DNA of 38,516 bases from a virus. Both the position numbers and the translations under genes were made by a program. The stretch is from positions 1-38,516 of the IMG/VR virus record IMGVR_UViG_3300008448_000246. One strand, given 5' to 3'. Shown here piece by piece: positions 14,201 to 37,963 of the stretch (the first letter of the stretch is position 1; every line of letters starts with the position of its first letter). The notes under the pieces are model-generated. The model ran no database searches and was not told the DNA's origin. It saw nothing but the letters and a program-made list of their open reading frames with translations.

Positions 14201-17200
14201 TGGCAATTATCAAATTAATTCTATTGGTAGCACTCAATTTACTATATCCCTAAAAAATAATCCAGAAAGACCTTCATATATTAAATCTGAATGTGATTCT
14301 ATAGAATATAAAACCAATTCTTTGACTGCAAGTGGTGGAGTTTCCAAGATTAAAACACTCTCACCTGGATTTAATTACAAAAAATTACCTATATTCTCCA
14401 CAATTGAATCTGAAAGTGGTACTGGAGCATATCTTGTTGCAAATTCAACTAAGATTGGAAACATCAATCAAAGTAGAATTTTAAATGAAGGATTCGGATA
14501 TGCATCAGATAAAACGTTAAAACCTGAAGCTGACGTTTCAAAACTATTAAACTTAGATAATTTATTTACAATAGAGAGAGTAGATATTCTTGATCCAGGA
14601 AAAAATTATACAGCGTCCCCCAATTTAATAATTGTAGATACAACTACTGGCGAAAAAATAGATTCTGGATATTTATCTCCAAACTTTTTTGGAAATTCTA
14701 TTAGATCTGTTTCAATTGAGGTTCCACCAAAAGGTCTACCAGCCACTATAGTAACAATAAAAGCAGTTAATAATACCAATGGTGTGGGAATAAATTCCAT
14801 TTCCTCTTCAAATTCTGGAATAATTACATGCAAATTAGTTACTCCTTTATCTGGATTTGCGGAGGAACCATTTGAAGTTGGCGATAAGATTTACGTTGAA
14901 GGAATTGAAAAATATGGAGTTGATGGGCAAGGATTTAATTCTGAAGATTATGGATATCAGTTTTTTACAATAACTAGTTATGAAAATGCAGGAACATCTT
15001 TACCAAGAAATTTAGAGTTTAGTGTAGTTGGTCTCGGAACCACTACAAATCCAGGAATAGCAAAAACATCTACGGATATTTACGGTTTTGTAATAAATTA
15101 CAAAAATTATCCAAAATTTAATGCCGTACAAAAATATGCTGATTTTATAAAAGGTGAATATTTAGAAGTTAAAAATAGTAGTGGAGTTTATCAACTACAG
15201 GATTTAAGAATAACAGAAACATCTGGAAGTACAATTAAAGTTGCAGGATCTTATGATATTTTATTAAATGATCATATAAGAGGAAATCAGTCTGCAACAA
15301 AAGCTATAATTAATGATATAAGTGCAACGAGTGGTAAATTTAACGTTGATTATGCATCTAGACAAAAGCTAGGATGGTCAGATGATATTGGAAAACTCAG
15401 TGAAGATACTCAGGTCATATCTGACAATGACTATTATCAAAATCTTTCATATAGTATAAAGAGTAAAAAAACATGGGAAGATATTGTAAGTCCAGTCAAC
15501 AATTTATTACATTCCGTTGGATTAAAAAACTTTTCTGATACGGAAATTTCCAATAATGTTGGACTTGGAACAACTGCAACTGAAGAATACTTATCAATTT
15601 TATATGATGTTATAAACGAAGAAAATGTCACTACAATTTCAAATTTTGATTTAGTTAGAGACATTGATACAAATATATCACAAAGTAGTTCTAGATTTGT
15701 GATTTTTGATAATAAAAGATTGGCAAACTATGTGGCAGCTGAATCTAATAGAGTATTGAGTATTGATGATATTAGTCCATTATTTTCAAGCACAAATCAA
15801 GATGTTGCTACTTCTTCAAAAATTACGACGATAGTTCCTAGCGATAAATTTAATTCATATTTGGTTCAAATTAAAAATAAAGATGGTTCAACGTCTCAAT
15901 TGACAGAGACTATTGTTTTGACAGATAATGCTGGTATAACTGGAGAACCAAATGTATATTCTTTTGAAAGGGGATCTTTATCTACAGGAATTACAACTGA
16001 AATTGGATATACTTCAAATTCAATAGGAGAAATTTATGGTGAAGTTGATGAATTAAATAATCATTACTTAAAGTTTGTACCCAATGATCCATATAATAGC
16101 ACATATGATATCAAATTTTTAAATACTAAATTCCCATCTTCAGATGTTGGCGTTGGGTCCACAACAATTGGTTTTATTACCCTATCTGGAATCACATCTA
16201 CAGTTGGTGCAGGATCTACCTTTAGTTTAATTAATCAAGGTCAGTCTACAATAAGATCTGCGTTTTCTCAGATCCATATAACTGATAATGTGACTAATAA
16301 AATGAATTACTATGAATTTTTCTTAGATAATACAAATGGTGTTGATACAAATTTAGGAGAATTTTATTTTGACACCGAAGAAGATACTAGCACACAATCT
16401 ATAGGAATATTTACTGCTTCTTTATCAAGTGGTATTGTTTCCTTTACCTATACAAACAATACAACAAATTCAGTAACTGTTAGATCAAAGATTGTTGGAT
16501 TTGGAGCAACGGCACTTGGAATAGGTACATATAGATTTAAATCGGATGGTCAACCAGATGAAGACGAGAGAACTATTAGTTTAGGTTCAAGTTTTACAAG
16601 AGTTTCTTCATCTTCTACAGTATTTTCCTATAATACGGATTTATACACATCGGCAAAGTCAATCATCAAAATAAGTGTAGGATCGACTAGTGCTTTACAC
16701 CAAGTATTGACTACTGTAGATTTAAATGATGTGTATACTTATCAATATCCATTTATATCTGCAGGAAGTACAACTGGTATAGGAACATTTGGAGGCAGGA
16801 GAAATGGAAATATTGCATCACTAATTTTTTATCCAGATACAAATCTTTCTGGCATTAGCACGACAACAACTTATGAAATATTAAGTTATAATTGTGTCTT
16901 TTATTCTGAAAGTGATTTTATTAATTTACCTCAAAATTTAACATATAAAAATGTTTCTGAATCGGTAGGTATTACTAAGTTTTATGCGGTTAACGATAAA
17001 GAAATTAATAGACTTAATTTTGAAGCATATTATAATCAAACTCCAATATTCATGAAGGAGTTTAATCCTGCCAATACGACAATATTAAATAAATCAACAG
17101 GAACATTTACAATCAATAACCATTTCTTTAATACTGGAGAAAAAATATATTATAGACCAAAATCAACTTTTGTTTCAGTTTCAGCATCCCCTGTAAGTAT

Positions 17201-20200
17201 TGGCGCAACAACTGATTATTTGGGATTCGTCACAAACATTATGCCTCCTGTTGTTTGGGCAATTAGAATTGATAATGATTCATTCCGATTAGCAGCAACA
17301 TTAAATGATGCATTATCTGGAATTGCTATAACATTTACATCTGAAGGATCTGGTAATGCACATGAATTGGAAATGGAAAAGAAAGTTGAAAAAACTATTA
17401 TATCAATTAATAATATAATTCAAAGTCCAATATCATATACAAAATTAAATTACACTCTTGATAATTACGGATCTATCGGAACAGCTTCAACAATTTTCAA
17501 ACTTAGTGGAATTAATTCAATTCGTATTAGTGATATTTTAAAAGTTGATAATGAATATATGAAGGTAGTAAATCTTGGACTTTCAACAACTCCAACTGGT
17601 CCAATTTCTTTTGCTGGAACTTTCCCATTAATTCAGGTTGAAAGAGGATTTGTTGGCACTTCAGCATCAACTCATGTAGATTTTAGTAATGTTTCTCTCT
17701 ATAGAGGATCATATGGCATTAATAAAAATACTATATGGTTTACTGAGCAACCAGAGGGTAATTTACAAGACCAATTATTTTCAGATTTAGACAATCTTCC
17801 AGAGTCTAGAGCATATTTTAATGGAAGAGTTTTCTTAAGAAAAGATTATACCACAAATATAATATATGACGATATTTCTGAAGAATTTAATGGGATAGGA
17901 AGAACTTATACTTTAACAATAAATGGTATTAATACATCTGGATTAGGATCCGATGGATCTAATGGTATTGTTATACTTAATGGAATATTCCAAACCCCAA
18001 CTACACAAAATAACCCAGCAAACAATTACAGCATTGTTGATAATACTACCTTTACTCAGGATCCATTTGCACCATATTATCTTAGACCAGATGAATATAC
18101 TGGATTTAGTGCTGGTCTTACTACCAATCCAGAGTTCACATCCGAAGTTGGTATTAGTAGTATCGTTTTTGCAGGAATTACTTCAGCTGGAACCGGAGAT
18201 TATATAACTTCACCATCTGATGTTAATTTAAATGAAGTTCCTAGGGGTGGTATTATTGTATCATTAGGATCCACTCCAGGACTTGGTTATGCGCCTTTAG
18301 TGGGAGCAAAAGTTAAAGCTACAGTTGGTGCTGGAGGAACCATAACAAATGTTGTTGGAATTTCTTACACAGGACCTTCTGTTGGAGTTAATACTGCTTT
18401 TTATGACCATGAAACTGGAGTAATTACAATAAGAACTTCAGTGGACCATGGTTTAATTGAAAACGATAGAGTTAGATTAGTGGGATTTGCATTTACGTGC
18501 CCTTCTGGTGCAGGAGTAGTTTCATATTTCCCATCACCTAAATTTGGCGCATATTTGTGGGAGGTTACTGGAATTCTCTCGTCTAGAGGATTTACCGCTA
18601 ATGTTGGAACAAGTACATTGCCACACACCTATGTTGGATCCGCATCCCTTGGATTTGGCACTGTATTCCCATGGTATAACTTAAATATTGGATCTGGATA
18701 TAGATCACCAGTATCAATAGCAATATCAGCACCAGTTGGATCTGGAGCAACAATATCTGCAACAGTAGGTGCAGGAGGTACATTATCATTTACTGTAGTT
18801 AATCCAGGATCTGGATACACTTCCATTGGATCAAGTGCTCCTAAATTTTATATTGCTCCACCAAACTATGAGAATCTTGAAGTAGTTGGTGTCTCTAGAC
18901 TGAGTGTAGGTTCAACAACAGATTGTGGATTTGGGTTGCTATTAAATCTTGAAGTTGGAGCAGCCTCAACAACTGGTGTTGGATCTTCTGATTTATTTGA
19001 GGTTAAAAATTTCAAGATTGCAAGAAATGGTTATGGATTCCAACGGGGAGATGTTATTAAAGCTGTTGGACTTGTAACTGCTAAAGGATTAGGAGCTCCT
19101 ATAAAAGAATTCCAATTAACAGTTTTGAAAACTTTCTCAGATTCTTTCTCATGTTGGCAATTTGGCGAAATGGATTATATTGACTCTATTGCCAGTTATC
19201 AAGATGGATCTAGAACAAGATTCCCATTATATTATAACAATGAATTAATAAGTATTGAACAAGGAGACTCACCAGAGTCGGTATTAATTGACTTTGATTC
19301 TTTATTAATTGTTTTTATTAATGGAATATTACAAGAACCTAAAGTTTCTTATGCATTTGAAGGTGGAAGTGCTATAGAATTTACACAAGCCCCTAGACCT
19401 GAAGATAAGGTATCAATATTTTTCTACAGGGGAAGTGATGCTGATAGTAGAGTTTATAATGTAATAGAAACTATAAAAGATGGAGATATTGTTCAAATAT
19501 TTTCAAATAATACTTTATCGGGAGTGACTACCACTCAAGAAGAAAGAACCGTAACCGAAATTTTATTCTCGGATAAAATTCAAACAGATCTTTATATCGA
19601 TCAAGGAGTGGATATTGTCAATAATAAACCAATTTATTGGACTAAGCAAAACACCGATAAAGTTATAGACGGTAAAATAATTTCAAAAGCAAGAGATTCT
19701 ATAGAACCACAAATTTATCCAACAGCAAGAATTATTAAAACCTTTGACAGTTTGTCTAATGAATTGTGGGTAGATAATGCCGAATTTTTCAATTATGAAA
19801 ATGTTGATGTTAATGAATTCTCATGTTCTGGATTAATAGTTACTGGTGAAGATGATCCAGTCGGAGCTGCAGCTAGTGCTACTGTTAATGCGAGTGGTAG
19901 AATTAGTGCGATTTCAATAACGAGTGCTGGTAGTGGATATTTTTCTTTGGGTCCAGCTGGAACAACTGTTCAACTGGAAATTGCAGCACCCACAAAAGTT
20001 GGAGTTGGTATTGGATCAACAGCAATTGGATACGCTGTAGTCAGTTCTACTGGGACAGTTACTGGTCCTGTTGTATCTTTCAGTGGTCTTGGATATACAT
20101 CCACTAATCCTCCAAGAATAATTGTTGAAAAACCTGTACCAGCATATGAATTCATTACTGAAATAACAACAGTTGAGGGATTTTCCGGAACTATTACAAA

Positions 20201-20660
20201 TATTGCAACTTGTCCAGGTATAGGAACAGCATTGGCAATTCAGTTTATATTGAGTCCAACAATGTCTCCATTCCCAAATTTAAATGTCGGAAATCCAGTT
20301 TATGTTTTTGATACTTATGTTGGAAGAGGAGTGACTTCAATTTATACTAATGATAGTGAAAGAATTGGAATAGGAACAACTTTTGCAGATTGCATTTATA
20401 ACGTAAGTGCATTTGATCCTTCTAGCGGAATTCTTACATGCAATATATTATCAACAACAAATGTATCTGGATTAATTACTTCTGGACCTATAGCCGGAAA
20501 AATTTCTTGGGGGAGATTGGCTGGATTTGAAAGAGGATCTGGTCCTATAGGAATAGCTCTTACTGGATATAGAGTTTCTGCGGGGCTCTCTACATTCCCA
20601 ACAATACAAAGAAGAGGTACAGGATTACGTAACATTGGAGGTTTAAAAAAGATCTTATAA
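8202..20660 (+). CDS. Giant baseplate protein at the gp7 position, 4152 aa
   Basis: A single uninterrupted frame between gp6 and gp8, where T4 has gp7 (1032 aa). Residues 1-330 (FEYRVKIQQVVENQLPEF, FFKQYYVSQEYQGG, YLKLDNLTPDVI) look like the wedge-anchoring N-terminus of cyanophage gp7-type proteins. The remainder is beta-rich and repetitive. About 15 GxGY/GxxY modules occur near residues 740, 930, 1076-1160, 1420, 2050-2130, 3355, 3495-3530, 3610 and 3906-3960. About nine 'NHxLxxGDxIxY' modules lie between 590 and 3400. Two NGxxQxP tail-fibre-like modules are near 3250 and 3700. A YHYH-like domain is at about 1235-1355 (GWAYDGNPIYGAYGY, then TPEFPEGVYAYFAT and FPYFIGD). It is likely a wedge protein carrying a long peripheral, perhaps receptor- or polysaccharide-contacting, extension. 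The gp7 identity is by position and N-terminus; the rest is inference. Confidence 0.8.
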   Translation: MIETGFEYRVKIQQVVENQLPEFIVDENPTAVEFFKQYYVSQEYQGGTVDIAENLDQYLKLDNLTPDVIVGFTTLSNNVSSSSDIIQVSSTKGFPQSYGLLKIDDEIITYTGLTTNTFTGCIRGFCGITTYNDVLNPGELVFSESSASEHSELSPVQNLSSLFLKEFYKKIKYSLTPGLENKDFVSELNVGNFIKEARTLYQSKGTSESFRILFKILFNESPRIVDLEKFTIKPSYATFVRRDVVVAEVISGDPLNLKGQTIFKTTDPNTSASVSEVELIRRKGKSYYKLLLFVGYDDSAPTITGTFNITGSTKNIDYVSAGSSSIIVDSTIGFPDSGIVYTDNNTIVYGSKSINQFFECSGINVGITTAETIYSEETYYGYEDGNTDNKVVIRISGVLSEFEADQSSTTALSIGEQIYVKNIGEKIKNPSSNKTYKEIFANSWIYNTSSRYYIDTFAPASTPNGTPVTTNQCILASSIDKSSLKVGDSIDVLNRDSQTIIKSNIKITAINGNQITTNSSFTLTKGSSYDIRRRIKTASSSVVPLQFNKITSDIQNVYNGNDDYIYVASNSFPSYTISKKIFSYNIVNVTDFDSETGTYSTLVFSQQVSFLTGSEVYYTHTDSPIESLSEGIYYVQVLPGNTQVKLYASRSVIGSSNYLTFGQVLSGTHTLTLNSQRERILSPQKILRKFPLSVNYDTGDQEIDFTEPGPVGMLINGVEIYGYKSESKVYYGPIESVNVLNGGTDYDVVNPPILNVSSGIASVRPIVSGKVERIFVDPQEFDVDVIVSIAITGGNGKGASFDPILERRRREISFDARLLTDEGGVDVVNDTITFLNNHGLINGQPITYRPGSNQPLGVATFLGGDSIQPGNFLKEETVYYTKFISDTTIQLYPSLNDYKIGINTIGFSTAGTSGIHKFATEPRKTLTEIKVVDSGSGYTNRKLSVLRSGISTVENIVLFNNHGFNDGDIIVYSNTAIGSSVASPLSGLTTTKQYYVLKLDNNRFQLADAGIGATTTINYLRRKPVSFGSTGNGYHNFAYPDISLKVDYTAVGLGSTQFRGSISATPVVKGSIIGAYTINSGIGYGSTIIDYHLKPTINVITGKNAEIRAVVTNGSITDVSISYGGLDYYSTPTIEITGTGNGAILKPVITNYRLTDVVIINGGSGYDSATKLKVVSSGKNVAFDPQVRSITINNNIVNDDITDNLTSANELIVSSYENLQYGICGYSGIVQTEFNDLGTAHSPIIGWAYDGNPIYGAYGYSDPQNKNSTIKKLVSGYTASLSNIANRPSGFNLGFFIDDYTFTGGGDLDPSNGRFCVTPEFPEGVYAYFATSVVDANNNKVGSFPYFIGDRYKSKFIQENKTLNQSIDFNNSGLIRNTFPYKVSDPYANNDFLIESNEILSQTTIIESVTSGSVEGISIISSGDDYKVGDNIVFDNTDTGGGGLIAEVSNIKGEEITQIDTSTLSYNSAEFTWNNDDSISVKISPKHDLKNLDYVNISGFSTSLSSLNGFYQVGINSYTTVLIQEVPEYQLSGFVTDIILSTLPQRLSIGSSIGIGTETLSILNIFESQNILRVRRGTTGTSHTAGKIVYFNPDRFTFNKKVGSFKSIEKKIVYFNPVFSVGVGTTSGTSTTVDYNIGLTTNQTVQIPSQSIYLPNHPFETNDRVILRRVSSASSITVLNYGVGIVSTTFELIAGLARTAFVIKRSPDYIGLVTSVGLVTSTNGLYFVNNGSNDYEYSIETTLDNIVGTVERITSNVSVSTSHNLSTGDQISLSIKPNITVGIGTSGSIRIQRDPLSGYILVNPILFGSSSVNTTNDTFTLANHNLNTGDKVKYTATTPAGGLTNNIFYFVYKLDNNRIKISETIEDVLSDPPITIDITSAGSAGATSQSFSLVNPQLVAIKNNNLLFNLRDSSLNGYQFQLFYDPAFKNRFVSAGGTSVFSTSGVGTPGISTNASLQLNFSENVPTKLYYALSKTGFISTADVSVKNYSQINFIDSYYNGNYQINSIGSTQFTISLKNNPERPSYIKSECDSIEYKTNSLTASGGVSKIKTLSPGFNYKKLPIFSTIESESGTGAYLVANSTKIGNINQSRILNEGFGYASDKTLKPEADVSKLLNLDNLFTIERVDILDPGKNYTASPNLIIVDTTTGEKIDSGYLSPNFFGNSIRSVSIEVPPKGLPATIVTIKAVNNTNGVGINSISSSNSGIITCKLVTPLSGFAEEPFEVGDKIYVEGIEKYGVDGQGFNSEDYGYQFFTITSYENAGTSLPRNLEFSVVGLGTTTNPGIAKTSTDIYGFVINYKNYPKFNAVQKYADFIKGEYLEVKNSSGVYQLQDLRITETSGSTIKVAGSYDILLNDHIRGNQSATKAIINDISATSGKFNVDYASRQKLGWSDDIGKLSEDTQVISDNDYYQNLSYSIKSKKTWEDIVSPVNNLLHSVGLKNFSDTEISNNVGLGTTATEEYLSILYDVINEENVTTISNFDLVRDIDTNISQSSSRFVIFDNKRLANYVAAESNRVLSIDDISPLFSSTNQDVATSSKITTIVPSDKFNSYLVQIKNKDGSTSQLTETIVLTDNAGITGEPNVYSFERGSLSTGITTEIGYTSNSIGEIYGEVDELNNHYLKFVPNDPYNSTYDIKFLNTKFPSSDVGVGSTTIGFITLSGITSTVGAGSTFSLINQGQSTIRSAFSQIHITDNVTNKMNYYEFFLDNTNGVDTNLGEFYFDTEEDTSTQSIGIFTASLSSGIVSFTYTNNTTNSVTVRSKIVGFGATALGIGTYRFKSDGQPDEDERTISLGSSFTRVSSSSTVFSYNTDLYTSAKSIIKISVGSTSALHQVLTTVDLNDVYTYQYPFISAGSTTGIGTFGGRRNGNIASLIFYPDTNLSGISTTTTYEILSYNCVFYSESDFINLPQNLTYKNVSESVGITKFYAVNDKEINRLNFEAYYNQTPIFMKEFNPANTTILNKSTGTFTINNHFFNTGEKIYYRPKSTFVSVSASPVSIGATTDYLGFVTNIMPPVVWAIRIDNDSFRLAATLNDALSGIAITFTSEGSGNAHELEMEKKVEKTIISINNIIQSPISYTKLNYTLDNYGSIGTASTIFKLSGINSIRISDILKVDNEYMKVVNLGLSTTPTGPISFAGTFPLIQVERGFVGTSASTHVDFSNVSLYRGSYGINKNTIWFTEQPEGNLQDQLFSDLDNLPESRAYFNGRVFLRKDYTTNIIYDDISEEFNGIGRTYTLTINGINTSGLGSDGSNGIVILNGIFQTPTTQNNPANNYSIVDNTTFTQDPFAPYYLRPDEYTGFSAGLTTNPEFTSEVGISSIVFAGITSAGTGDYITSPSDVNLNEVPRGGIIVSLGSTPGLGYAPLVGAKVKATVGAGGTITNVVGISYTGPSVGVNTAFYDHETGVITIRTSVDHGLIENDRVRLVGFAFTCPSGAGVVSYFPSPKFGAYLWEVTGILSSRGFTANVGTSTLPHTYVGSASLGFGTVFPWYNLNIGSGYRSPVSIAISAPVGSGATISATVGAGGTLSFTVVNPGSGYTSIGSSAPKFYIAPPNYENLEVVGVSRLSVGSTTDCGFGLLLNLEVGAASTTGVGSSDLFEVKNFKIARNGYGFQRGDVIKAVGLVTAKGLGAPIKEFQLTVLKTFSDSFSCWQFGEMDYIDSIASYQDGSRTRFPLYYNNELISIEQGDSPESVLIDFDSLLIVFINGILQEPKVSYAFEGGSAIEFTQAPRPEDKVSIFFYRGSDADSRVYNVIETIKDGDIVQIFSNNTLSGVTTTQEERTVTEILFSDKIQTDLYIDQGVDIVNNKPIYWTKQNTDKVIDGKIISKARDSIEPQIYPTARIIKTFDSLSNELWVDNAEFFNYENVDVNEFSCSGLIVTGEDDPVGAAASATVNASGRISAISITSAGSGYFSLGPAGTTVQLEIAAPTKVGVGIGSTAIGYAVVSSTGTVTGPVVSFSGLGYTSTNPPRIIVEKPVPAYEFITEITTVEGFSGTITNIATCPGIGTALAIQFILSPTMSPFPNLNVGNPVYVFDTYVGRGVTSIYTNDSERIGIGTTFADCIYNVSAFDPSSGILTCNILSTTNVSGLITSGPIAGKISWGRLAGFERGSGPIGIALTGYRVSAGLSTFPTIQRRGTGLRNIGGLKKIL

Positions 20661-20692: not shown

Positions 20693-22267
20693 ATGTCTGC
20701 ACTTGTAACGGATCAATTTAGAATATTAAATGCATCAAATTTGGCAGATTCTGTAGCAAATTCTTCAAATTCATATTATGTTTTTGTTGGTCTTTCAAAT
20801 CCAACTACACCATCTGGAGGATTTGGGAGATCTGGCACTTGGGACAGTAATCCACCAAATCCAACGGATAATTATGACTATGTAAATCATTACAAGTCAA
20901 CTATTTTATATGGTAAAAAAATAACTAGTGCTAACCTTAGAAGAGTAGTAAGAAGGATTGATTGGACTTCTGGGCAGCAATATGATATGTATCGAGCAGA
21001 TTATAGTATAGAAAATAGATCTTCTTCTGGCGCATTGAGATTATATGATGCAAACTATTACGTTTTAAATTCCGATTATAGAGTTTATATTTGTCTTAAT
21101 AATGGATCTTCTGGAATTAAAACTTCAGGAAATTCTTCTCAGATTGAACCAACCTTTACAGATTTAGAACCAACACAACTTTCCGATGGGTATGTTTGGA
21201 AATTTTTATATACTGTTTCGCCAAGTGATATTGTAAAATTTGATTCGACAGAATACATTGCTATTCCAAATGACTGGGCAACAACTACAGATTCTCAAAT
21301 AACTGCAGTTAGAGAAAATGGAGATTCGACAGTAAATGAAAATCAAATAAAACAAATTTTTATTAAAAGTACCGGACTTGGTTATCCCACACAATCGGGA
21401 AAAGTATGCAACATAGTTGGTGATGGTAGTGGAGGACAAGTTTCGATTGATATTGATGTTGAGGGAAAAGTTTCTAATGCAACTGTCATTGCTGGTGGAA
21501 AGAATTATACCTATGCTTTAATTGATCTAGGTACAACATCTACAAATATTCCAGCATCCTATGCAAATTTAATACCAATCATTCCACCTTCAAGGGGTCA
21601 TGGATATGACATATATCGTGAGTTGGGTGCAGATAAAGTTTTAGTTTATGTAAGGTTTGATGATTCGACAAAAGATTTTCCAATCGATACTAAATTTGCT
21701 CAGGTTGGAATTGTAAAAAATCCTTTTGTTTTTAGCACCACTGGAACTGGGACAACTATCTTTAGTGGAAATGAATTTTCCGCAGTTTACGCCATGAAAT
21801 TTAGTGGCACACCTACTGGCACAGTTTCAATTGGGGATAAAATTGAACAAACCGTAAGTGGTGGTAAAGCATATGGATATGTTGTATCATATGATACTGA
21901 AACAAAGGTTTTAAAGTATTATAGAGATCGTTCAATTTATTACAATGGTGGTAGTGGATCCACTAATGCGGACTTTGTTGGCATGTCATCATTTTTTGGA
22001 TCAACAGGTACTCAACTTACTTTTAATTCCACTAATCAAATTAGCAAATCGGACGGCGGATTTAATGCCACAATTGATAATGGATTTAGTGGAATAACAA
22101 CAACAGTTGGATCAAAAATTGTTAATTTAGGGGTGAACTTCACAAATGGTTTATCAGATCCTGAGATAAATAGTAAGTCGGGCGATGTCCTTTACATAGA
22201 TAATAGACCAACTGTAACAAGAAATTCTAGACAAAAAGAAGACGTTAAAATTATCCTGGAATTTTAA
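20693..22267 (+). CDS. 8: Baseplate wedge subunit gp8
   Basis: gp8-like wedge protein, which dimerises and bridges gp7 and gp10 in the baseplate. The N-terminal region (LVTDQFRILNASNLADSV, YYVFVGLSNPT, then RRVVRRIDWTSGQQYDMYR) and the later segment DGYVWKFLYTVSPSDIVKF are characteristic of gp8 proteins of cyanophages. At 524 aa it is longer than T4 gp8 (334 aa). Residues about 220-280 contain two GxGY-type segments (KSTGLGYPTQSG, AGGKNYTYALIDLG), the same module found in the giant gene and in gp14. An exact late promoter precedes it. It ends three bases before the next gene. Confidence 0.88.
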   Translation: MSALVTDQFRILNASNLADSVANSSNSYYVFVGLSNPTTPSGGFGRSGTWDSNPPNPTDNYDYVNHYKSTILYGKKITSANLRRVVRRIDWTSGQQYDMYRADYSIENRSSSGALRLYDANYYVLNSDYRVYICLNNGSSGIKTSGNSSQIEPTFTDLEPTQLSDGYVWKFLYTVSPSDIVKFDSTEYIAIPNDWATTTDSQITAVRENGDSTVNENQIKQIFIKSTGLGYPTQSGKVCNIVGDGSGGQVSIDIDVEGKVSNATVIAGGKNYTYALIDLGTTSTNIPASYANLIPIIPPSRGHGYDIYRELGADKVLVYVRFDDSTKDFPIDTKFAQVGIVKNPFVFSTTGTGTTIFSGNEFSAVYAMKFSGTPTGTVSIGDKIEQTVSGGKAYGYVVSYDTETKVLKYYRDRSIYYNGGSGSTNADFVGMSSFFGSTGTQLTFNSTNQISKSDGGFNATIDNGFSGITTTVGSKIVNLGVNFTNGLSDPEINSKSGDVLYIDNRPTVTRNSRQKEDVKIILEF

Positions 22268-22270
22268 AAA

Positions 22271-25200
22271 ATGGCTCAAAAAACTAATTTAAATGTAAGT
22301 CCTTATTTTGATGATTTCAATGAACCTATTACTGGGGCGAGGGACAATAATTATTACAAGGTCTTATTTAATCCAGGTAAGCCAATACAGGCAAGAGAAT
22401 TAAATACTTTACAATCAATATTACAAGATCAAGTAGAGTCATTTGGTAGCCATATTTTTAAAGAGGGATCCTTAGTTATTCCAGGAAATATTGCATATGA
22501 TAATCAATTTAGTGCAGTAAAACTTAATCCAACGCAGTATGGAGTAGATATAACTTCATACCTGTCCAATTTTATCGGAAAAACAATTATAGGGCAAGTT
22601 TCTGGAATTAGTGCAAGACTTGTATATGTTCAAGATGTAAATTCCGATGTAGAATATCCAACAATATATGTAAAATACTTAGATTCTGATGCTAATAATT
22701 TAATTTCTCCCTTTGAGGATGATGAATCTTTATATGTAAACGAATCTGTTGGTAATATAGGATCCGGTGTTCCATTTGCAACTACAATTGTATCTGATGC
22801 AACTTCAACAGGATCATCCGCATCTATTGGAGAGGGTGTTTACTTTGTTAGAGGGACATTTGTAAGAGTTGAAAAGCAAACTTTAATATTAGACTATTAT
22901 ACAAATATGCCCACTTATAGGGTGGGTTTATCTGTAGTTGAAGAAATCATTACCGCAAAGGATGATGAAAATTTATATGATAATGCAAGTGGATTTACAA
23001 ATTATGCAGCTCCAGGAGCAGATAGATTTAAAATATCTTTAATTCTTACTAAAAAATCTATAGATGACATCAATGATGTTGATTTTGTCGAATTACTGAG
23101 AGTTAGAAATGGATCCATTCAAAAAATGGATGTGCAGTCATCATATAATTTAATTAGGGATTGGATTGCAAAAAGAACTTATGATGAATCCGGAAATTAT
23201 GTTATAGATCCTTTTGAATTTTCCATAAACAATTCTTTAAATGATAGGATTGGAAATGATGGATTATATTTTGATACTGAAAAAACCGAACAGGGAAATA
23301 TTCCATCTGATGATTTGATGTGTTTAAAATTATCACCAGGTAAGGCTTATGTAGAAGGATATGATATAGAAAAAACGGGAACAGAAGTACTTGATTTTGA
23401 TAAACCAAGAACTACCCAAACTGTCTCCTCAGTAAATATCCCATTCCAAATGGGAAATATACTGAGAGTTAATAATGTAACTGGAGCACCAGCTATAAGA
23501 GGAATTGTTTTCCTACAAAATAGAAGAAAAAATAGTACTATAGCTGGAGCAGGTACAACTATAGGTGCTGCAAGAGTTTATAGTTTTAGCGTAACTGACG
23601 CAGCATATCTGGGATCCCCTACGATATGGGATTTATATCTATATGATATTCAAACATTTACAGAACTTACTATAAACCAATCAGTTTCTTCAGTAGAACT
23701 GCCAGCAACTTCATTTATAAAAGGTAAAAGTAGTGGTGCAACTGCATATACCGTTTCTTCTGGTGGTAGTGGAACTAATACATTAATTTTAAGACAAACT
23801 TCGGGAACTTTTATAATTGGAGAACAAATTTTAATTAATGGAACTGAATTATATCCAAGATCTATTTCTGGAATAAAAGCATATAATGCAAATGATATAA
23901 AATCATTGTATCAACCATCAGCTGTTAGTGGATTTTCGACAGCATTTGTGGCAGATTCGTATTTAGAAAAATTTGCAAGACCGGAAATAATTACGATTAC
24001 TCCTGGAATTGGTGGCATCTCGACTGCAACTGTTGCATCTCCAGCAACTTTTACCGGAATAAAAACAGATGATATTATTAGATATCAGAGACCAGGCATA
24101 ACATCAGAAATTTATAACAGAGTTAGCGGAATTTCGAGTAGTCTAACATCACTAACATTAGTTGCAGAAACTAGTGTTAGTGGAGTTTGTGATGGTACAT
24201 TGGGAATTTCTACACTATACAGTGGTCCATATTCAGTTGGAATCGCTAGAATTAGAAATGACCAACAGGGATTTTTATATGCAAGACTACCAAATGATAA
24301 TGTTTCATCAATTAATTTAAATTTTTCAAATATAACATTCACTGCCCAAAATAATACATCATTTACACCTACAGTGACTGGAAATACCTTAACGGTAGAT
24401 GTGGGTAATTTTAATATTGGTATTACTTCTGCGGTTATAGATTTTGCAGCATTCGATGAAGAAAGATATTCGATAATGTATAATGATGGTAGTATAGAAA
24501 CCTTATCAGCTGATAAGGTTTCTATTACATCAAATCCTAGTAGAGTCACTTTTTCCAATATTCAGAATAAAACAATATCGGTAATTAATGCAACTTTTAT
24601 CAAAAATAATTTACAAAGTAAAATTAAACAATTTGTAAGAAGTAGAACTTTAAATGTAATTTATTCCAAAAACCCAGAGTCTGGTACGGGAATTAATACA
24701 ACATCAAATGATGGACTTATATATAACCAATTTTATGGTTTAAGAGTTCAGGATGAAGAAATTTCTCTCAATTATCCAGATGTAGTATCTGTTCTCGCTG
24801 TTTATGAATCTTTAGATACAAATGCACCAACTTTAGATCAATTAGCGTTTAGTGCTGTAGTTAATGTTGACGCTAACGCTATTATTGGGGAAAAGATCGT
24901 AGGTCAAACAAGCAAAGCAGTCGCAAGAATTGTATCAAAACCATCTTCTAATAATTTAGGTATTGTATACTTAAATTCATCACAGTTTATTGCAGGAGAA
25001 ACTGTTACTTTCAGTGAATCTGATATTACTACCACAATATCATCCATAACTTTAGGTAAATACAGTAATATTACTACTAAATTTACTCTAGATAAAGGTC
25101 AGAAAGAGCAATATTATGATTATTCGAGAATTGTAAGAAGATCCGGAGAAAATTCACCATCTAGACAATTACTAATAGTATTCGATCATTATAGTGTCCC

Positions 25201-28200
25201 AACATCAGATACTGGAGACATTTTTACAGTTAACAGTTATTCTGCAGAAAGATTCTCAACGGACATTCCAAGTATAGGATTCAATAATACTAGAGCATCA
25301 GATACATTAGATTTTAGACCGTATGTTGGTGTTTTTTCTGGAACTACATCATCGCCATTTGAATTTTCCTCCAGATCATTTGGCGCGGAACCAAAGTTAA
25401 TAGTTTCTCCTGATGAAAGTGGTTTAGTTGGATATCAGTTTTATTTGGGGAGAATTGACAAACTTTATATTGATAAAAAAGGATCTTTCACTCTCCTTCA
25501 AGGTACACCTGCACCAGATCCAAAAGAACCAAGTAATCCAAATAATGTAATGGAAATCGCTACCATTACATTGCCCCCATACTTATATAATCCAGCAGAT
25601 GCTCAAGTATCTCTTAATGATAATAGAAGATATACAATGAGAGATATTGGAAAACTTGAAGATAGAATTGAAAATTTAGAAAAAACAACATCGTTAAGTT
25701 TGTTGGAGTTAAATACATCAACTTTACAAATTCAAGATGCTAATGGGTTAACTAGATTTAAATCTGGATTTTTTGTAGATGATTTTAAAAATTATGATTT
25801 AATTGACAACAGATATTCAAAAATAAGAATAGATGAGCAAAATACACAGTTATGCACACAAGAAACTAGAAATAGTATAAATTTAAGACCAGTTCCAGCA
25901 ACTAATGCTCCAGATAGCACTATTGATCTAAATTCAAATTATAGTTTAGTAGATAATAATGTAAAGAAAGTTGGAGATGGTATACTTTTAAACTACGAAT
26001 CGGTAGCATGGTTAAATCAACTTTTTGCTACTAAAGTAGAAAATGTTAACCCATTCCATGTAATTTCATACAGTGGAACCGTAAAATTAAATCCATCTTC
26101 AGATAGTTGGGTTAGAACAATTCGATTAGCAGATTTAACTGTAAATCAAACTAACTGGCAATGGTTATATGCTACCGGAACATTTTCCATTGTTGGAAGT
26201 AGCACTAATACTAGTGTTCAAGATGTCCTAAGAGCGAGCGGAAAAGAATCTTACATGAGATCCCGTAATACGGGATTTACCGCCGTGAATATGAAACCAT
26301 TTACAAGATTATATCAATTTTTAGATGGAACAAGCGGAGTAGACTTTATTCCCAAACTTATTGAAATTGCATCAGACACATCTTTACAAAATTATGGTGC
26401 ATCTGGAGCATTCACTGTAGGAGAAACTGTAAAAGGATATGTAAATGGAAATGTCCAAATTTCCTTTAGGGTTGCAAAATCTAATCATAAAGAAGGATCC
26501 TATAATGACCCATCTGTGACTTATAGCACCAATCCATACTCCACAAACGAATCTATACCTGCATCATACAGTGCATCATCCAAAGTGCTAAACGTTGATA
26601 TCGATGCCTTATGCACTGCCGCTCAAGGTCTTTATAATGGTTATTTGACAGTTGGCATGAAGTTAGTTGGACAATCTAGTGGATCTGTTGCTTACGTAAA
26701 AGATCTAAGACTTATTACAGATTTAAATGGATTTATTTCAGGATCATTCTTTTTGAGAGATCCAAATACAAATCCACCCCCTGCAGTAAGAATTGCAACA
26801 GGATCAAAAGTTTATAAATTAACTTCAAGTTCCACAAATGCAACGCCATTGCCTGGAAGCACATTGATTTGCTCTGGAGAAACAATTTATAAGGCTGAAG
26901 GAACCTGGGAAGAAAGGCAAAAAGTAACTACGGTCACAACAACAATATATTATGTTGATCCATTAGCACAATCATTCTCTGTTGGCGGAAATGTGGAAGC
27001 AGCAAATGGAAATGTTCCAGGTGAAGACGTAAATGGAGCATTTTTAACTGCAGTAGACTTATACTTTGCTAGCAAAGATGGTGGAAATGCCCCATTAACG
27101 GTTGAAGTTAGAACAGTAAGTCTTGGTACTCCAACTAGAGAAGTATTGGGATCTAAAACCTTATTACCAAATAATATTTTAACTTCTAATGATTCATCAG
27201 TAGCAACTAATGTTGTTTTTGATACTCCAATATATTTAAAACCATTTGAAGAATATGCAATTGTACTTCTTGCACCACAAACTGATCAATATGAAGTTTG
27301 GATTGCAGAGATGGGGCAAAAAACTATCAATACAGCTTCACTACCAGATTCACAAGCTGTTAGATATACACAACAATTTGCTATTGGAAGTCTATTTAAA
27401 TCTCAAAATGGAACAATTTGGACTGCAAATCAATATCAGGATTTGAAGTTTAGATTATATAAAGCAAAATTTACATCAACAACTGGCAGTGCTTTATTTT
27501 CAAATCCAACTTTACATCAAAGTAATGGATATGTGCCAGTTTTATCATCCAACCCAATTACTGTTCTGCCAAGAAAATTAAAAGTTGGAATTACAACTAC
27601 AGATAATACCTCAATTATCGGAATATTAACTACAGGTAGAAAAATTACGGTCCAATCTGCAACTTATCTTTCTGGTACAATTACTGGAACAGGATCTTCT
27701 GCGGTTACGGTAGCAATTACCACAAGCGGGTCTAATTATACAACAGGATCGGTTCAAACTTTTAACTATAATGGTGATGGAACTGGATTAAGATTAAATA
27801 TTACTGCGACAGGTGGGGCAATTACTGGTGTTGGCGTTTCTCAGTCATTCCCAGGAAATGGATATAAAGTTGGAGATGTAGTTGGAATTGTAACTAGTAG
27901 CGTTTCACCAGCATCTGGATCTGGAGCCCGTATTACTATAACCAGTGTTGCAAATAAAATAGATACTTTATACCTCACAAATGTTCAAGGAGATTCACTT
28001 AACGTTGGTGTTGCAACTCTAGGATATTATAATACCTCCGGAACATTAGTATCTCTCGGTAGTACCACAATTTTATCTTCCGCAAACTATGGTAATTATA
28101 GTACTGGCAATTATTTCCAGGTGAACCACTATGATCATAGCATGTATGCTAAAAATAATAAAATTACTCTTTATAATGTACGATCTGATTTTGCGCCAAC

Positions 28201-30194: not shown

Positions 30195-30673
30195 TGGCAG
30201 ATATTAGAGTCAGAGTTGGACAACAAAACGGAATAAAAATTGTTTCTAGCAACTCTGGTCTTGCTAATGCAGTAGAGGCTACTAATGTAATAGGTGGAAT
30301 AGCATCTGTAACTGCGCTGAACGTCAGCGGTCTTTCTACATTTATAGGTATTGCAACTTTTTATAATGATGTATATATTACAGGAAACTTAAATGTTTCG
30401 AATGATCTTACATTTGATGAATTTAATGCAACTAATGCAAATATTTCTGGATTTACGACTACCACAAATTTAAATGTAGGCGTAGCAACTGTAACTGGGT
30501 CTCTTTATTATTCTCCCTCATATACTAGTGGGATTGCATATTTCGATTCTAATGGATTAATGGTATCTACTGGTGCAACGAGTTCTGCAATAACTCATAC
30601 AAACTATATACTAACAACAGATGATAATGGCATTCCAACCTGGACAAATGTAATAGATGGAGGATCCTTTTAA
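30194..30673 (+). CDS. Fibre/whisker-like protein at the wac position, 159 aa
   Basis: Lies directly upstream of gp13, where T4 encodes fibritin (wac). The protein has beta-helix-like repeats with regularly spaced N-V-S-G-L-S-T-F and N-L-N-V-S-N-D-L-T-F segments, typical of the shaft part of cyanophage fibres, and a C-terminal block (NYILTTDDNGIPTWTNV) seen at the ends of such fibres. There is no extended coiled coil as in T4 fibritin, so it is not a wac orthologue by sequence. It could be a collar fibre or short tail fibre. Both ends overlap neighbours as TAATG. Confidence 0.65.
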   Translation: MADIRVRVGQQNGIKIVSSNSGLANAVEATNVIGGIASVTALNVSGLSTFIGIATFYNDVYITGNLNVSNDLTFDEFNATNANISGFTTTTNLNVGVATVTGSLYYSPSYTSGIAYFDSNGLMVSTGATSSAITHTNYILTTDDNGIPTWTNVIDGGSF

Positions 30674-31515
30674 TGTCGAAGCCAACAACTAGACAAGAAC
30701 TTGTTGATTACTGCTTAAGAAGATTAGGAGCTCCTATTCTTGAAATCAATTTGGATGACGATCAAATTGATGATATGGTCGATGATGCATTACAATATTT
30801 TCAAGAAAGACACTTTGATGGTGTCGAAAGAATGTATCTAAAATATAAGATCACCGAAGAAGATTTAAATAGAGGACGTGCTCAAGCACCAAATGGGGTT
30901 GGAATTGTTACCACAACAGGTTCTGCAAATATTTCAGGTATTGGAACAACGTCATTTAATTTTTATGAGTCATCAAATTTTATTCAAGTTCCAGATTCAG
31001 TAATTGGTATTGAAAAGGTTTTTAAATTCGATACTAGTTCAATTTCTGCTGGAATGTTTAGTATTAAATATCAATTGTTTTTAAACGATTTATATTATTT
31101 TAATTCTGTTGAACTTTTGCAATATGCAATGGTAAAAACTTATCTGGAAGATATTGACTTTTTGTTGACAACTGATAAGCAAATAAGATTTAACAAACGA
31201 CAAAATAGATTATATCTAGATATTGAATGGGGAGCAAAGTCTAAAGATACTTACCTTATTATTGATTGCTACAGAATTTTAGATCCTAATGATTTTACCA
31301 AAGTTTATAATGACAGTTTTTTGAAAAAATATTTAACTGCATTATTGAAGAGACAATGGGGGCAAAATTTAATTAAATTCAGAGGAGTTAAACTTCCTGG
31401 AGGTATTGAATTAAATGGTAGAGAATTGTATGAGGATGCGGAGAGAGAAATAGAAAATATAAGACAAAGAATGTCTATGGATTACGAATTACCACCTTAC
31501 GATTTTATAGGATAA
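30673..31515 (+). CDS. 13: Neck protein gp13
   Basis: Head-completion/neck protein that with gp14 closes the portal vertex and receives the tail. The N-terminus shows the family signature: LVDYCLRRLGAPILEINLDDDQIDDMVDDALQYFQERH (split here by description: CLRRLGAP at 18-25, then acidic DDDQIDDMVDDAL). The C-terminus (LLKRQWGQNLIKFRGVKLPGG, ELYEDAEREIENIRQRM) is also conserved. Length 280 aa compares with 309 aa in T4. It starts at a TAATG overlap and is followed after one base by gp14. Confidence 0.92.
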   Translation: MSKPTTRQELVDYCLRRLGAPILEINLDDDQIDDMVDDALQYFQERHFDGVERMYLKYKITEEDLNRGRAQAPNGVGIVTTTGSANISGIGTTSFNFYESSNFIQVPDSVIGIEKVFKFDTSSISAGMFSIKYQLFLNDLYYFNSVELLQYAMVKTYLEDIDFLLTTDKQIRFNKRQNRLYLDIEWGAKSKDTYLIIDCYRILDPNDFTKVYNDSFLKKYLTALLKRQWGQNLIKFRGVKLPGGIELNGRELYEDAEREIENIRQRMSMDYELPPYDFIG

Positions 31516-31516
31516 T

Positions 31517-32920
31517 ATGGCACTTAATCCATTTTTTTTACAAGGATCTCCCGGTGAGCAAAGACTCGTTCAAAGTTTAATTAACGAGCAATTAAAAATT
31601 TATGGTGTTGAAGTTGTTTACATTCCCAGAAAATTTGTTAGGAGAGAGACCATAATAAGAGAAGTAACAACTTCCAGATTTGATGATAACTTTGCAATAG
31701 AAGCATATGTAAATAACTATGAAGGTTATAGTGGACAAGGGGATATTCTTTCAAAATTTGGAATGAATTTGAAAGATGAATTAAGTCTAATCATATCAAA
31801 AGAACGATTTGAAGATTTTATATCCCCATTTATAACCAATGATGACCAAGCATCTTTAGAAGTTAGTACTCGACCAAGAGAGGGAGATATTATCTATTTT
31901 CCATTAGGTCAAAGAATATTTGAAGTTAAATTTGTCGAACATGAGCAACCATTTTATCAACTTGGGAAAACATATGTTTATGAACTAAAATGTGAATTGT
32001 TCCAATATGAAGATGAGATGGGAGGATGGAGTAATATTAATACTAGTGAAGAAGAAATTGATACTTTATTGGAAAATGTGGGATATATTACTAAGTTGCA
32101 ACTCATATCTTTTGGATCTCAAGCCTTAGCATCAGCAACGGTAGATTCTGGATACATTAGAAAAATAGTAATATTAAACGATGGATATGATTATACTTCT
32201 ACACCAACTGTATCTATTTCGACGGCTCCTTCTGGAGGTAAAAATGCCGAAGCTGTTGCTATTACCACTTCGATTAATGGAGTTCACTCTATTAAAGAAA
32301 TTTTATTAATAAATGCCGGAGCAGGATATACAGTTTCACCAGGAATTGCAATTACAGGTGGAGGAGGATCCGGAGCAGCTGTTACTTGTGTACTTGTCAC
32401 GGGATATTCTGGAATATCTAGCGTAAGTATTGCATCAACGGCACTTGGATCTGGTTATCCAATATCACCAACAATTGCATTTAGTTCTCCTACTGCTGGA
32501 TTAGCCGTGACCGCAGTTGGTAGAGTTTCAATTGCAGAAACTGGAATCGTTACCAGAGTTTTACTTTCTGATGCTGGTATTGGATATACAACAACACCTA
32601 CCGCTACAATATCTGCACCACCTTTAATCACAGGGATTGGAACATTCATATTTAATGAAGTAGTCACAGGTTCAATTTCTAATGCAACTGGAAGAGTAAA
32701 AACTTGGAATTCTACTACAAATGTTCTTAAGGTCGGAACTACCAATGGAACTTTTGTAGCGGGAGATATTGTAGTTGGGTCAACTTCTAATGCAACATAT
32801 TCATTAGATTATATTGAAGAGGCGAAGTTTAGTGATAAATATGAAGATAATGATCAAATCGAACAAGAGGCAGATCTTATCGTCGATTTTTCAGAATCAA
32901 ATCCATTCGGTAATTACTAA
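31517..32920 (+). CDS. 14: Neck protein gp14 with inserted GxGY module
   Basis: Residues 1-205 match the gp14 core: NPFFLQGSPGEQRLVQSLINE, GVEVVYIPRKFVRRE, IEAYVNNYEGYSGQGDILSKFG, and REGDIIYFPLGQRIFEVKFVEHE. The last ~47 residues (AKFSDKYEDNDQIEQEADLIVDF) are the usual acidic gp14 C-terminus. Between them, about residues 205-420, lies a Gly/Ala/Ser/Thr-rich beta segment with four GxGY-type repeats (NDGYDYTSTPTVSI, NAGAGYTVSPGIAI, ALGSGYPISPTIAF, DAGIGYTTTPTATI). Removing it leaves about 250 residues, the size of T4 gp14 (256 aa). The core role is neck assembly on the filled head; the insertion presumably projects from the neck. Confidence 0.9.
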   Translation: MALNPFFLQGSPGEQRLVQSLINEQLKIYGVEVVYIPRKFVRRETIIREVTTSRFDDNFAIEAYVNNYEGYSGQGDILSKFGMNLKDELSLIISKERFEDFISPFITNDDQASLEVSTRPREGDIIYFPLGQRIFEVKFVEHEQPFYQLGKTYVYELKCELFQYEDEMGGWSNINTSEEEIDTLLENVGYITKLQLISFGSQALASATVDSGYIRKIVILNDGYDYTSTPTVSISTAPSGGKNAEAVAITTSINGVHSIKEILLINAGAGYTVSPGIAITGGGGSGAAVTCVLVTGYSGISSVSIASTALGSGYPISPTIAFSSPTAGLAVTAVGRVSIAETGIVTRVLLSDAGIGYTTTPTATISAPPLITGIGTFIFNEVVTGSISNATGRVKTWNSTTNVLKVGTTNGTFVAGDIVVGSTSNATYSLDYIEEAKFSDKYEDNDQIEQEADLIVDFSESNPFGNY

Positions 32921-34158: not shown

Positions 34159-35838
34159 ATGAGTTGGTCTAAGGTTTATAAAAAATCAATAGACTGTGAT
34201 AATCCAAAAGGATTTTCACAAAAAGCTCATTGTGCTGCTCGTAAAAAAAGAGCAAAGGGTGAAGAAACAAAATCTAAATCACCATTTAATGAAATGCACG
34301 AAATAAAGTCTCATAAAACAGTTGAACAGATTGCAAAGAAACATCGTTTAGAAGTTTCTTTCGTAAAAAGACAACTTGAAATGGGGATTCCGATTGAACA
34401 TGAACATACAAGAGATAAAGATCTAGCTACAGATATTGCTCTTCAACATTTAGATGAAATTCCAGATTATTACACTCGTTTGAAAAAAATGGAAATAGAT
34501 GCTAAAAAACATCATAAAAAGTTCAAAGATGTAAAAGAAGCAACTGATGGTATTGGGGCATCATCGCCAAAATATAGTTTACATAAATGGTTTGATGATG
34601 GTGGTTGGGTTCAAGCGGGTGGCAAATATGATGGAAAACCATGCGCTAAACAACCAGGTCAAACTACAAAACCATTTTGCCGTGATCCTGATGATCGTAA
34701 AAATATGAGTAAAGAAGAGAGAAATAAAAGATCTGCTAAAAAACGTAGAGAAGATCCAAATCCAAACAGATCAGGAGCTGCAAAAATCGTGACAAAAGAA
34801 GAATACATTCAAGAAAAGAAAGGTGAAAAGGATGCTTGCTACCATAAAGTAAAAAGTAGATATAAAATTTGGCCAAGTGCTTATGCATCGGGAGCACTTG
34901 TTAAATGCCGTAAGGTTGGTGCCGATAATTGGGGTACAAAGTCCGAAGAAGCAATTATTGACGAAGCAAAAAAATGTTGGAAAGGATATAAAAAGGAAGG
35001 AACTCAAACACTTTTTGGTAAAACTTATAATCGCTGTGTAAAAGCAAATGAGGAAACGGAAATGATTAGATATTGTCCCAAGTGTCAAAAAGACGAAACC
35101 CGTAGCGAATGCAAATATGGTCCAAAGTATTGGGATATGTTCTCAATTCCATCAGCACTTACAACTAATCAATTAAAATACAATATCGCTACAGTTCATC
35201 CTGGAAATTTTCCAGAATCTTATGATCATGAATATTCAATGGCTCGCTCAGAACTTTCAACAATTATTTCTGCAGCAAAGAGACTTCGTAAAAAAATGAA
35301 AGGTGAAGGTAATATTGAGGCATGGGTTCAGTCAAAAATTACAAAGGCAGCAGATTATATTGATACTGCAGCAGATTATGTAGATAGTGGTGAAATGAAA
35401 TCTGAAAGTGTTGAGAGTGGTCCAATTCTTCCCAAAGAAAGGGGTAAAAGAATATTTCCTAAAGGACAAGAACCAAAACCAACTGGTGCAAAATTACCAC
35501 CTCTTCAAAATGCACACTATGAACTAGAAGGTGATCTAGTTGAATACTCAAACTGGAGAGCAGATTTTGGATTATCCGAGGATTGGCAAAAAGTAAATCG
35601 TCAAGATAAGACTGATGGATTGAGTCCAGCTGCAGTAAAAGCATACCGTCGTGAAAATCCTGGATCAAAACTTCAGACTGCAGTGACAGAAAAAAATCCA
35701 AAAGGAAAAAGAGCAGGTCGCCGTAAAAATTTTTGCAGTAGAATGAAAGGCATGAAAGATAAACTTACTTCTGCAGAAACCGCAAGAGATCCAGATTCAA
35801 GAATCAACAAAGCACTACGTCGCTGGAGGTGCAGATAA
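34159..35838 (+). CDS. Mosaic basic protein of small phage DUF modules, 559 aa
   Basis: Modules in order: 4-31, KVYKKSIDCDNPKGFSQKAHC Cys/His/Lys motif; 50-112, helical DUF5661-like (HKTVEQIAKKHRLEVSFV, then GIPIEHEHT); 140-208, DUF5872-like (HKWFDDGGWVQAGGKYDGKP, then Lys/Arg-rich); 225-260, a motif with CYHKVKSRYKIWPSAYASG and KCRKVGADNWG; 273-296, CWKGYKKEGTQTLFGKTYNRC; 305-319, a CPKC...C zinc-ribbon-like start; 385-412, WVQSKITKAADYIDTAADY; 465-559, DUF6321-like (VNRQDKTDGLSPAAVKAY ... RRKNFCSRM ... ALRRWRC). These modules recur separately in phages and giant viruses. The protein is very basic and has many Cys. Its place between gp16 and gp17 suggests a packaged or DNA-associated protein; this is inference. 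Confidence 0.8.
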   Translation: MSWSKVYKKSIDCDNPKGFSQKAHCAARKKRAKGEETKSKSPFNEMHEIKSHKTVEQIAKKHRLEVSFVKRQLEMGIPIEHEHTRDKDLATDIALQHLDEIPDYYTRLKKMEIDAKKHHKKFKDVKEATDGIGASSPKYSLHKWFDDGGWVQAGGKYDGKPCAKQPGQTTKPFCRDPDDRKNMSKEERNKRSAKKRREDPNPNRSGAAKIVTKEEYIQEKKGEKDACYHKVKSRYKIWPSAYASGALVKCRKVGADNWGTKSEEAIIDEAKKCWKGYKKEGTQTLFGKTYNRCVKANEETEMIRYCPKCQKDETRSECKYGPKYWDMFSIPSALTTNQLKYNIATVHPGNFPESYDHEYSMARSELSTIISAAKRLRKKMKGEGNIEAWVQSKITKAADYIDTAADYVDSGEMKSESVESGPILPKERGKRIFPKGQEPKPTGAKLPPLQNAHYELEGDLVEYSNWRADFGLSEDWQKVNRQDKTDGLSPAAVKAYRRENPGSKLQTAVTEKNPKGKRAGRRKNFCSRMKGMKDKLTSAETARDPDSRINKALRRWRCR

Positions 35839-37477: not shown

Positions 37478-37963
37478 GTGTCTGCTATTATTAAAGTTCC
37501 AAAAGAAAAGTTAAGTCCCAAAACAGTAAGAAATATTGCCCGTAAAAACTGGGGACTATCTTGGGAACAAATGGTAGGTATGGATGTCCACCATCATCCA
37601 CCAAGAAGTGAAGGTGGTAAAGACATTCCAGAGCACTTATATATTTGCAGTAGGGAGAGACACAAAAAAGTATATCATGGAGATGCATATTATATGAAAA
37701 ATTTAAATAAAGCAAGTGCCAAAAATAAAGGTAGTAAACATTCAGAAGAAACTTGTAGGAAAAGAAGTGAATCTCTTAAAGGAAGATCTTTCGGACACAA
37801 ATATGAAGGTGGGGAAAAACATCCAAATAGTAAAAAGATAAGTATTAATGGTAAACAGTATATTTCTCAGCAGGAAGCAGCAGATGATCTAGGTATTACA
37901 ATACAAGCAGTTTCTTACAGAATGAAGAATTGGGGTCCAGAAAGGGGGTATTCCTATGTCTGA
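37478..37963 (+). CDS. Free-standing HNH homing endonuclease with NUMOD3 and NUMOD1, 161 aa
   Basis: GTG start at 37478 (an ATG two bases earlier is out of frame). The HNH core spans residues 36-67: MDVHHHPPRSEGGKDIPEHLY, then a second region with His62 and His67 (ERHKKVYHG). His38-40 supply the metal/base residues, and His53 stands where many relatives have Asn. Residues 85-104 form a NUMOD3 DNA-binding motif (KHSEETCRKRSESLKGR). Residues 120-150 form a NUMOD1-like helix-turn-helix (ISINGKQYISQQEAADDLGI). Such enzymes cut specific sites and spread into alleles lacking them. It lies between the truncated and the intact gp17 start, and its last eight bases overlap gp17. Confidence 0.9.
   Translation: MSAIIKVPKEKLSPKTVRNIARKNWGLSWEQMVGMDVHHHPPRSEGGKDIPEHLYICSRERHKKVYHGDAYYMKNLNKASAKNKGSKHSEETCRKRSESLKGRSFGHKYEGGEKHPNSKKISINGKQYISQQEAADDLGITIQAVSYRMKNWGPERGYSYV

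Follow-up and report, generated by a model that had tools for sequence, protein, structure and literature searches.

The locus examined here raises the question of what a long, repeat-bearing insertion does in a phage neck protein, and why the same repeats recur in three other virion proteins encoded nearby. T4-like cyanophages are widespread ocean viruses. The window, the whole stretch of 38,516 nucleotides that was analyzed, is a 38.5-kb virus record with the gene order of T4-like cyanophages such as P-SSM2. All features of gp13, gp14 and the three baseplate-region proteins located below lie on the + strand.

The ORF at 31517–32920 (467 residues) is the T4-type neck or head-closure protein gp14 (Hc2). 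Residues 4–187 match the Pfam family PF11649 (T4_neck-protein) with 106.2 bits against a cut-off of 25, and the protein matches the PHROGs family phrog_460 (head closure Hc2) with an E-value of 3e-124, a match that takes in part of the repeat region. Consecutive ORFs match phrog_211, phrog_460 and phrog_227, corresponding to the order gp13-gp14-gp15. VIA comparison of an AlphaFold2 model recovered the T4 gp14 fold (9lu4–9lu7) with Z-scores of 13–14 over 130–141 residues, all within residues 1–173; the best match (9lu7_M; Z 14.2, rmsd 4.0, 141 residues) stood well above unrelated rows. The assignment to gp14 follows from the PF11649 match, the gp13 and gp15 neighbors and the core fold taken together. 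NCBIfam gave no match for the window gp14 or for the giant protein described below.

The T4-like part of the protein comprises a core (residues 1–188; 31517–32080) and a conserved C-terminal tail (residues 441–467; 32837–32917). T4 gp14 forms a hexamer in which residues 178–256 rearrange and contact gp15 (PMC12270204), and the window tail aligns with the gp15-contacting T4 tail. Between core and tail lies an extra block relative to T4 gp14. The initial annotation had recognized this insertion, and that reading holds; its core limits (residues 1–205 and 420–467) do not, and the insert measures about 250 residues rather than ~215. T4 gp14 (PDB 9mkb, 9lu4–9lu7; PF11649) shares with the window protein the core fold, the tail and the gene position between gp13 and gp15, but it has 256 residues, no detected GE module (see below) and no GxGY units. 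The cyanophage gp14 family phrog_460 is a family profile whose head-closure label omits the arm, its two attachment sites and its unit ladder.

The AlphaFold2 model of gp14, built from 72 window and viral-contig sequences, is nearly all β over residues 190–430, with pLDDT mostly 85–97. Model confidence was poor in the core (block means of roughly 34–77) and the overall pTM is 0.54, so the model does not give the orientation of the arm. Neither open-licence papers nor a PDB sequence search yielded a neck structure of a T4-like cyanophage.

Much of the inserted block is a tandem array of GxGY units. Each unit of ~43 residues runs from alternating hydrophobics through G-x-G-Y, usually followed by P-x-[IV]-x-[IV], to a glycine-rich turn. 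Four units occupy residues 210–384, as had been noted from the letters alone, and score 30–50 bits with a profile HMM that was iterated on relatives' units and afterwards retrained with all window units removed; because the units that entered this retraining had been selected with an earlier profile that included window units, its independence is incomplete. Unit 1 spans residues 210–252 (32144–32272; 49.8 bits, 45.7 with the window left out), unit 2 residues 256–296 (32282–32404; 41.6 and 38.5 bits), unit 3 residues 295–339 (32399–32533; 30.7 and 30.5 bits) and unit 4 residues 342–384 (32540–32668; 53.6 and 50.3 bits). Proteins were searched in 100-residue pieces; a gp14-only HMM run on whole ORFs missed the giant protein. 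Twenty shuffled copies of every window protein averaged 0.05 matches of at least 12 bits, compared with 18 in the real proteins. In the PHROGs collection, which was built by others, residues 210–391 match baseplate wedge, tail-fibre and virion-protein families with E-values down to 4.5e-14. The insert matched no Pfam family up to an E-value of 1, including Ig, Big and FN3. An artificial repeat consensus found no match by tblastn against phages and plasmids, a result that the low-complexity filter may explain and that is uninformative on distribution.

The array is followed by a second inserted module, absent from the initial annotation. This GE module (residues 372–431; 32630–32809), which comprises GTFIFNEVVTGSISNATGRVKTWNSTTNVLKVGTTNGTFVAGDIVVGSTSNATYSL and its flanks and whose start overlaps the end of unit 4, scores 39.4 bits with a model made only from 308-residue gp14s. 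In those shorter proteins, such as that of P-SSM4, GE is the sole inserted module, and their model matches the window contiguously at residues 372–428, after the array. The structure model tentatively suggests that GE and its flanking strands form a small β-barrel, with weak barrel matches over residues 189–440 (Z about 6). A Z of about 6 is a level that the tool warns is common, and the VIA-align rows for eIF2-gamma domain 3 and T4 gp18, also at about 6, were not accepted as a sign of kinship.

The array is placed differently relative to GE in two sister clades of cyanophage gp14. The GE model matches contiguously after the array in clade B and is split around the array in clade A. The 390-residue clade (S-RIM8, S-RIM2) has the GE model split around a two-unit array; in S-RIM8, model positions 1–32 lie before the array and most of the remainder after it, with the alignment of the second piece running into the last unit. 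The two placements suggest two gains of the array, or one gain and a rearrangement.

We examined how widely the array is distributed. A tblastn search of INPHARED with the gp14 insert returned 101 records; among the matches listed, those annotated were neck, head completion or head closure proteins, and a few at the gp14 position were hypothetical or unannotated. Across 345 gp14s, length and unit ladder give 0, 2, 4, 6 or 8 units in cyanophages, by clade; the loci were picked by similarity searches with few queries, and clade frequencies therefore mean nothing. A maximum-likelihood tree was built from 76 gp14 cores (185 columns, insert excluded), in which no single branch set the chosen outgroup apart from the rest and 23 of the 73 inner branches were open. 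On this tree, T4, Vibrio D486, SKML-39, the Melnitz group and the S-H34 group, all outside clades A and B, have no units. Most members of clade A have two. Nearly all sampled members of clade B (52 tree rows) have an array of four units or longer, mostly four, as in S-SM2, P-SSM2 and P-TIM68. Six units are found in L074, L077 and L080, eight in S-PRM1 and S-8S56, and six to seven together with a lectin domain in the Sf-FS3 group; the extra units of these longer proteins sit mid-array. A gp14 of the S-H34 group (L273:3361–4716) carries a different, non-GxGY insertion with repeated GGDA-type motifs in a similar place.

The 308-residue gp14s of P-SSM4 and Syn30, which have no units, are nested inside the two-unit clade A (99/97 with L244) and differ from it in length by 82 residues, equal to two units. 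From this nesting, the P-SSM4/Syn30 group probably lost its units, in a single loss. For the origin of the array, one gain would be simplest on the tree, but its differing placement around GE points to two gains or a rearrangement; the data favor neither account. An insertion that was recent or local is not borne out, the array being widespread in both cyanophage clades. The opposite possibility, that the region is an ancestral part of all cyanophage gp14s, holds in part: it is widespread, but P-SSM4, Syn30 and S-H34 have no units.

One subclade carries a further domain within the array. In the gp14 of Sf-FS3 (763 residues; L252:1501–3789), a Laminin_G_3 domain lies between GxGY units (E 2.9e-7, 31.2 bits, cut-off 27.6). 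A search of viral contigs added about 30 matches that were full or nearly so (L291–L328), as well as relatives about 300 residues shorter (L335–L357) that have the array without Laminin_G_3; the Pfam scan for this domain covered Sf-FS3, and the other contigs were assigned from their length and similarity. Such a lectin insertion suggests that the arm is exposed and able to carry binding domains, in an example limited to one subclade that does not include the window phage.

With moderate confidence, we interpret the insert as a Kyanoviridae-specific neck arm of gp14 that would act as a length-adjustable spacer and display platform. The GE module, which gp14s without GxGY units also have, is seated between the T4-type core and the C-terminal tail, and the tandem β array is attached at GE. 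The number of units varies by clade (0, 2, 4, 6 or 8), the array having grown from its middle, and the units are inherited in register with gp14. Given the T4 gp14 hexamer and the corresponding C-terminal stretch that contacts gp15, six arms are expected per particle; by analogy, these six β arms probably stand out from the neck at the head-tail joint. The array is most likely a rigid spacer that sets reach, with binding domains carried in some lineages, and a plain neck decoration in others, including the window phage.

Instead of projecting, the array could lie against gp15, the portal or the sheath. It lies inside the stretch equivalent to the part of T4 gp14 that contacts gp15, and its ends are conserved in both sequence and position, as might be expected of an internal reinforcement that packs on gp15 or a neighboring gp14 and stabilizes the head-tail joint with no exposed function. 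However, a range of 0–8 units and the tolerance of a whole lectin domain are easier to reconcile with a free arm than with a packed interface, and the 308-residue proteins persist despite the probable loss of their 82-residue two-unit block. We therefore regard reinforcement as unlikely and retain the projecting arm as the preferred interpretation.

GxGY units also occur outside gp14. With the window left out of training, the HMM detected 12 units in the giant gp7-position protein (11.7–30 bits), two in a 2396-residue protein and one in gp8. The best unit in each of the four proteins, gp14 included, scores 15.7–50 bits, gp8 being the weakest case. The occurrence of one GxGY module family in four virion proteins, as initially proposed, is supported; the count of about 15 copies in the giant protein is not, and in gp8, where the module had been placed at residues 220–280, the one clear unit is at residues 257–293.

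The giant protein (4152 residues; 8202–20660) matches phrog_2885, baseplate wedge subunit. Its units include one at residues 731–761 (10392–10484; 14.2 bits), a cluster of three at residues 1069–1188 (11406–11765; 12.8, 30.0 and 21.8 bits), one at residues 1410–1448 (12429–12545; 24.3 bits), and pairs at residues 2042–2150 (14325–14651; 20.1 and 23.1 bits), 3495–3554 (18684–18863; 27.7 and 21.2 bits) and 3896–3979 (19887–20138; 26.6 and 19.1 bits). The unit at 1410–1448 is of the GD variant, which replaces P-x-[IV]-x-[IV] in some units outside gp14. Between units lies a YHYH domain (residues 1239–1334; 11916–12203; PF14240, E 1.5e-25), a domain for which a metal-dependent hydrolase role is a prediction only (PMC7824862). 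An AlphaFold2 model of residues 1000–1440, from only 11 sequences, has a pLDDT of 35, too low for a comparison of folds, although its strand pattern resembles that of the gp14 array.

The GxGY region of gp8 (residues 215–293; 21335–21571) contains the clear unit at 257–293 (15.7 bits) and a weak one at 215–248 (9.2 bits, with an earlier model only). The 2396-residue protein has two units (residues 1807–1839 and 1847–1890; 27689–27940; 18.4 and 20.9 bits) and two GE-like modules, at residues 482–520 (23714–23830; 20.2 bits) and 871–923 (24881–25039; 22.0 bits). A weak GE-like match (8.4 bits) was also seen at residues 375–410 of gp8.

A single unit family in four virion proteins might mean that each unit is itself a binding module, giving neck and baseplate a common weak affinity for glycans or surfaces. 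The PHROGs matches to tail-fibre families would be in keeping with this, as would the other domains found between units (Laminin_G_3 in Sf-FS3 gp14, YHYH in the giant protein). The make-up of the unit argues against it. Strong conservation, assessed over 483 units from gp14 and 81 from elsewhere, is confined to G14, G16, Y17, G32 and the alternating hydrophobics, with P21 conserved mainly in gp14; there is no mostly acidic position, and Y17 is the sole conserved aromatic. Glycines, tyrosine, proline and hydrophobics are not ligand-like, and the shared glycan- or surface-binding property suggested in the initial annotation finds no direct support. The carbohydrate-binding module of the neck fibre of cyanophage A-1(L), moreover, did not bind the host (PMC10966104). 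We consider a common binding role improbable. The baseplate copies are probably the same building material, acquired long ago, and not evidence of one shared ligand. Ig-like accessory domains are likewise β modules on several classes of phage virion protein, in some cases shown to be dispensable, and possibly surface-binding (Fraser et al. 2006, reviewed in PMC9022992). This likeness is a functional analogy only; the GxGY insert has no Ig, Big or FN3 Pfam match, and its unit is ~43 residues long with a GxGY motif.

The relationships among individual units bear on how the family came to be shared. In a sample from four-unit proteins, 162 of 164 gp14 units had their nearest neighbor at the matching position of a gp14 from a different phage; any shuffling was therefore ancient. 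Every unit checked from six- and eight-unit gp14s had its best match among other gp14 units, in one case narrowly. For nine of the ten units tested from the window giant, the best match lay in a different phage, in a protein other than gp14 (the giant of S-SRM01 or P-SSM2); the tenth was marginally closest to another phage's gp14 (68.5 vs 66.5), and none was closest to the window's own gp14. These similarities indicate that each protein's copies have long been inherited with that protein and have not recently been shuffled. Modular shuffling within the operon had been proposed because four proteins encoded in one region share the unit family; a recent event of this kind has left no trace in these comparisons and is highly improbable.

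The neck of T4 provides the closest point of comparison for the arm. T4 fibritin is bound by gp13 residues 190–239 (PMC12270204), and the window gp13 (280 residues; 30673–31515), aligned with T4 gp13, is without most of this segment. The same holds broadly: 322 of 324 gp13-like proteins from the loci have only two residues aligned in T4 195–235. The segment is present in T4 and in Morganella Mm5, Aeromonas 60AhydR15PP and Vibrio D486, three with an annotated whisker gene just upstream, and is absent from SKML-39, SH-Ab 15599, TSW001 and K475. Its absence also outside the cyanophages points to a T4-side feature rather than a cyanophage loss. Queried with T4 wac, phmmer recovered no phage but T4, not even Vibrio D486 with its annotated whisker, and the search therefore does not show that wac is absent from cyanophages.

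Fibritin whiskers on the gp13 ring resemble the gp14 arm in that both decorate the neck and both rely on additional residues within a neck protein. In T4 this involves gp13 residues 190–239 and separate fibritin trimers; in cyanophages most of that segment is missing and the addition is in gp14. From these few phages, it appears that the T4 side and the cyanophages have each extended a different ring of the neck. The neck fibres of A-1(L) (gp80-gp82) are another cyanophage neck appendage, with the carbohydrate-binding module in the distal protein (PMC10966104), but they are separate proteins on a 15-mer ring, whereas the gp14 arm is an insertion in a hexameric closure protein.

A broader proposal, which we offer tentatively and think less likely to be right than wrong, is that marine T4-like phages decorate the other neck ring than T4 does. 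Their built-in gp14 arm, with a reach given by unit number and room for a lectin, would serve in adhesion or sensing and would have arisen separately from the T4 whiskers, with units gained at two loops of one module in two sister clades. If exposed, the arm would be a second possible site of cell contact besides the tail fibres, with a length that can be read from sequence. The protein clearly illustrates how tandem β units, kept in register over a long time, can enlarge a core component of the virion, and is testable by structure. The T4-type gp14 family (PF11649, phrog_460) was known; we found no description of the cyanophage gp14 arm in open-licence papers.

Three minor observations concern neighboring or related records. 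In S-SRM01 (MW015081.1; L089:27134–31095), the labels of the tail sheath and the terminase large subunit seem to have been exchanged, judging from protein sizes and gene order. The window encodes a 559-residue protein with DUF5661 and DUF6321 (34159–35838) directly after the terminase small subunit gene. At 37478–37963, a homing-endonuclease-like ORF (phrog_314; I-TevI DNA-binding domain slightly below cut-off) adjoins the truncated last ORF of the window.
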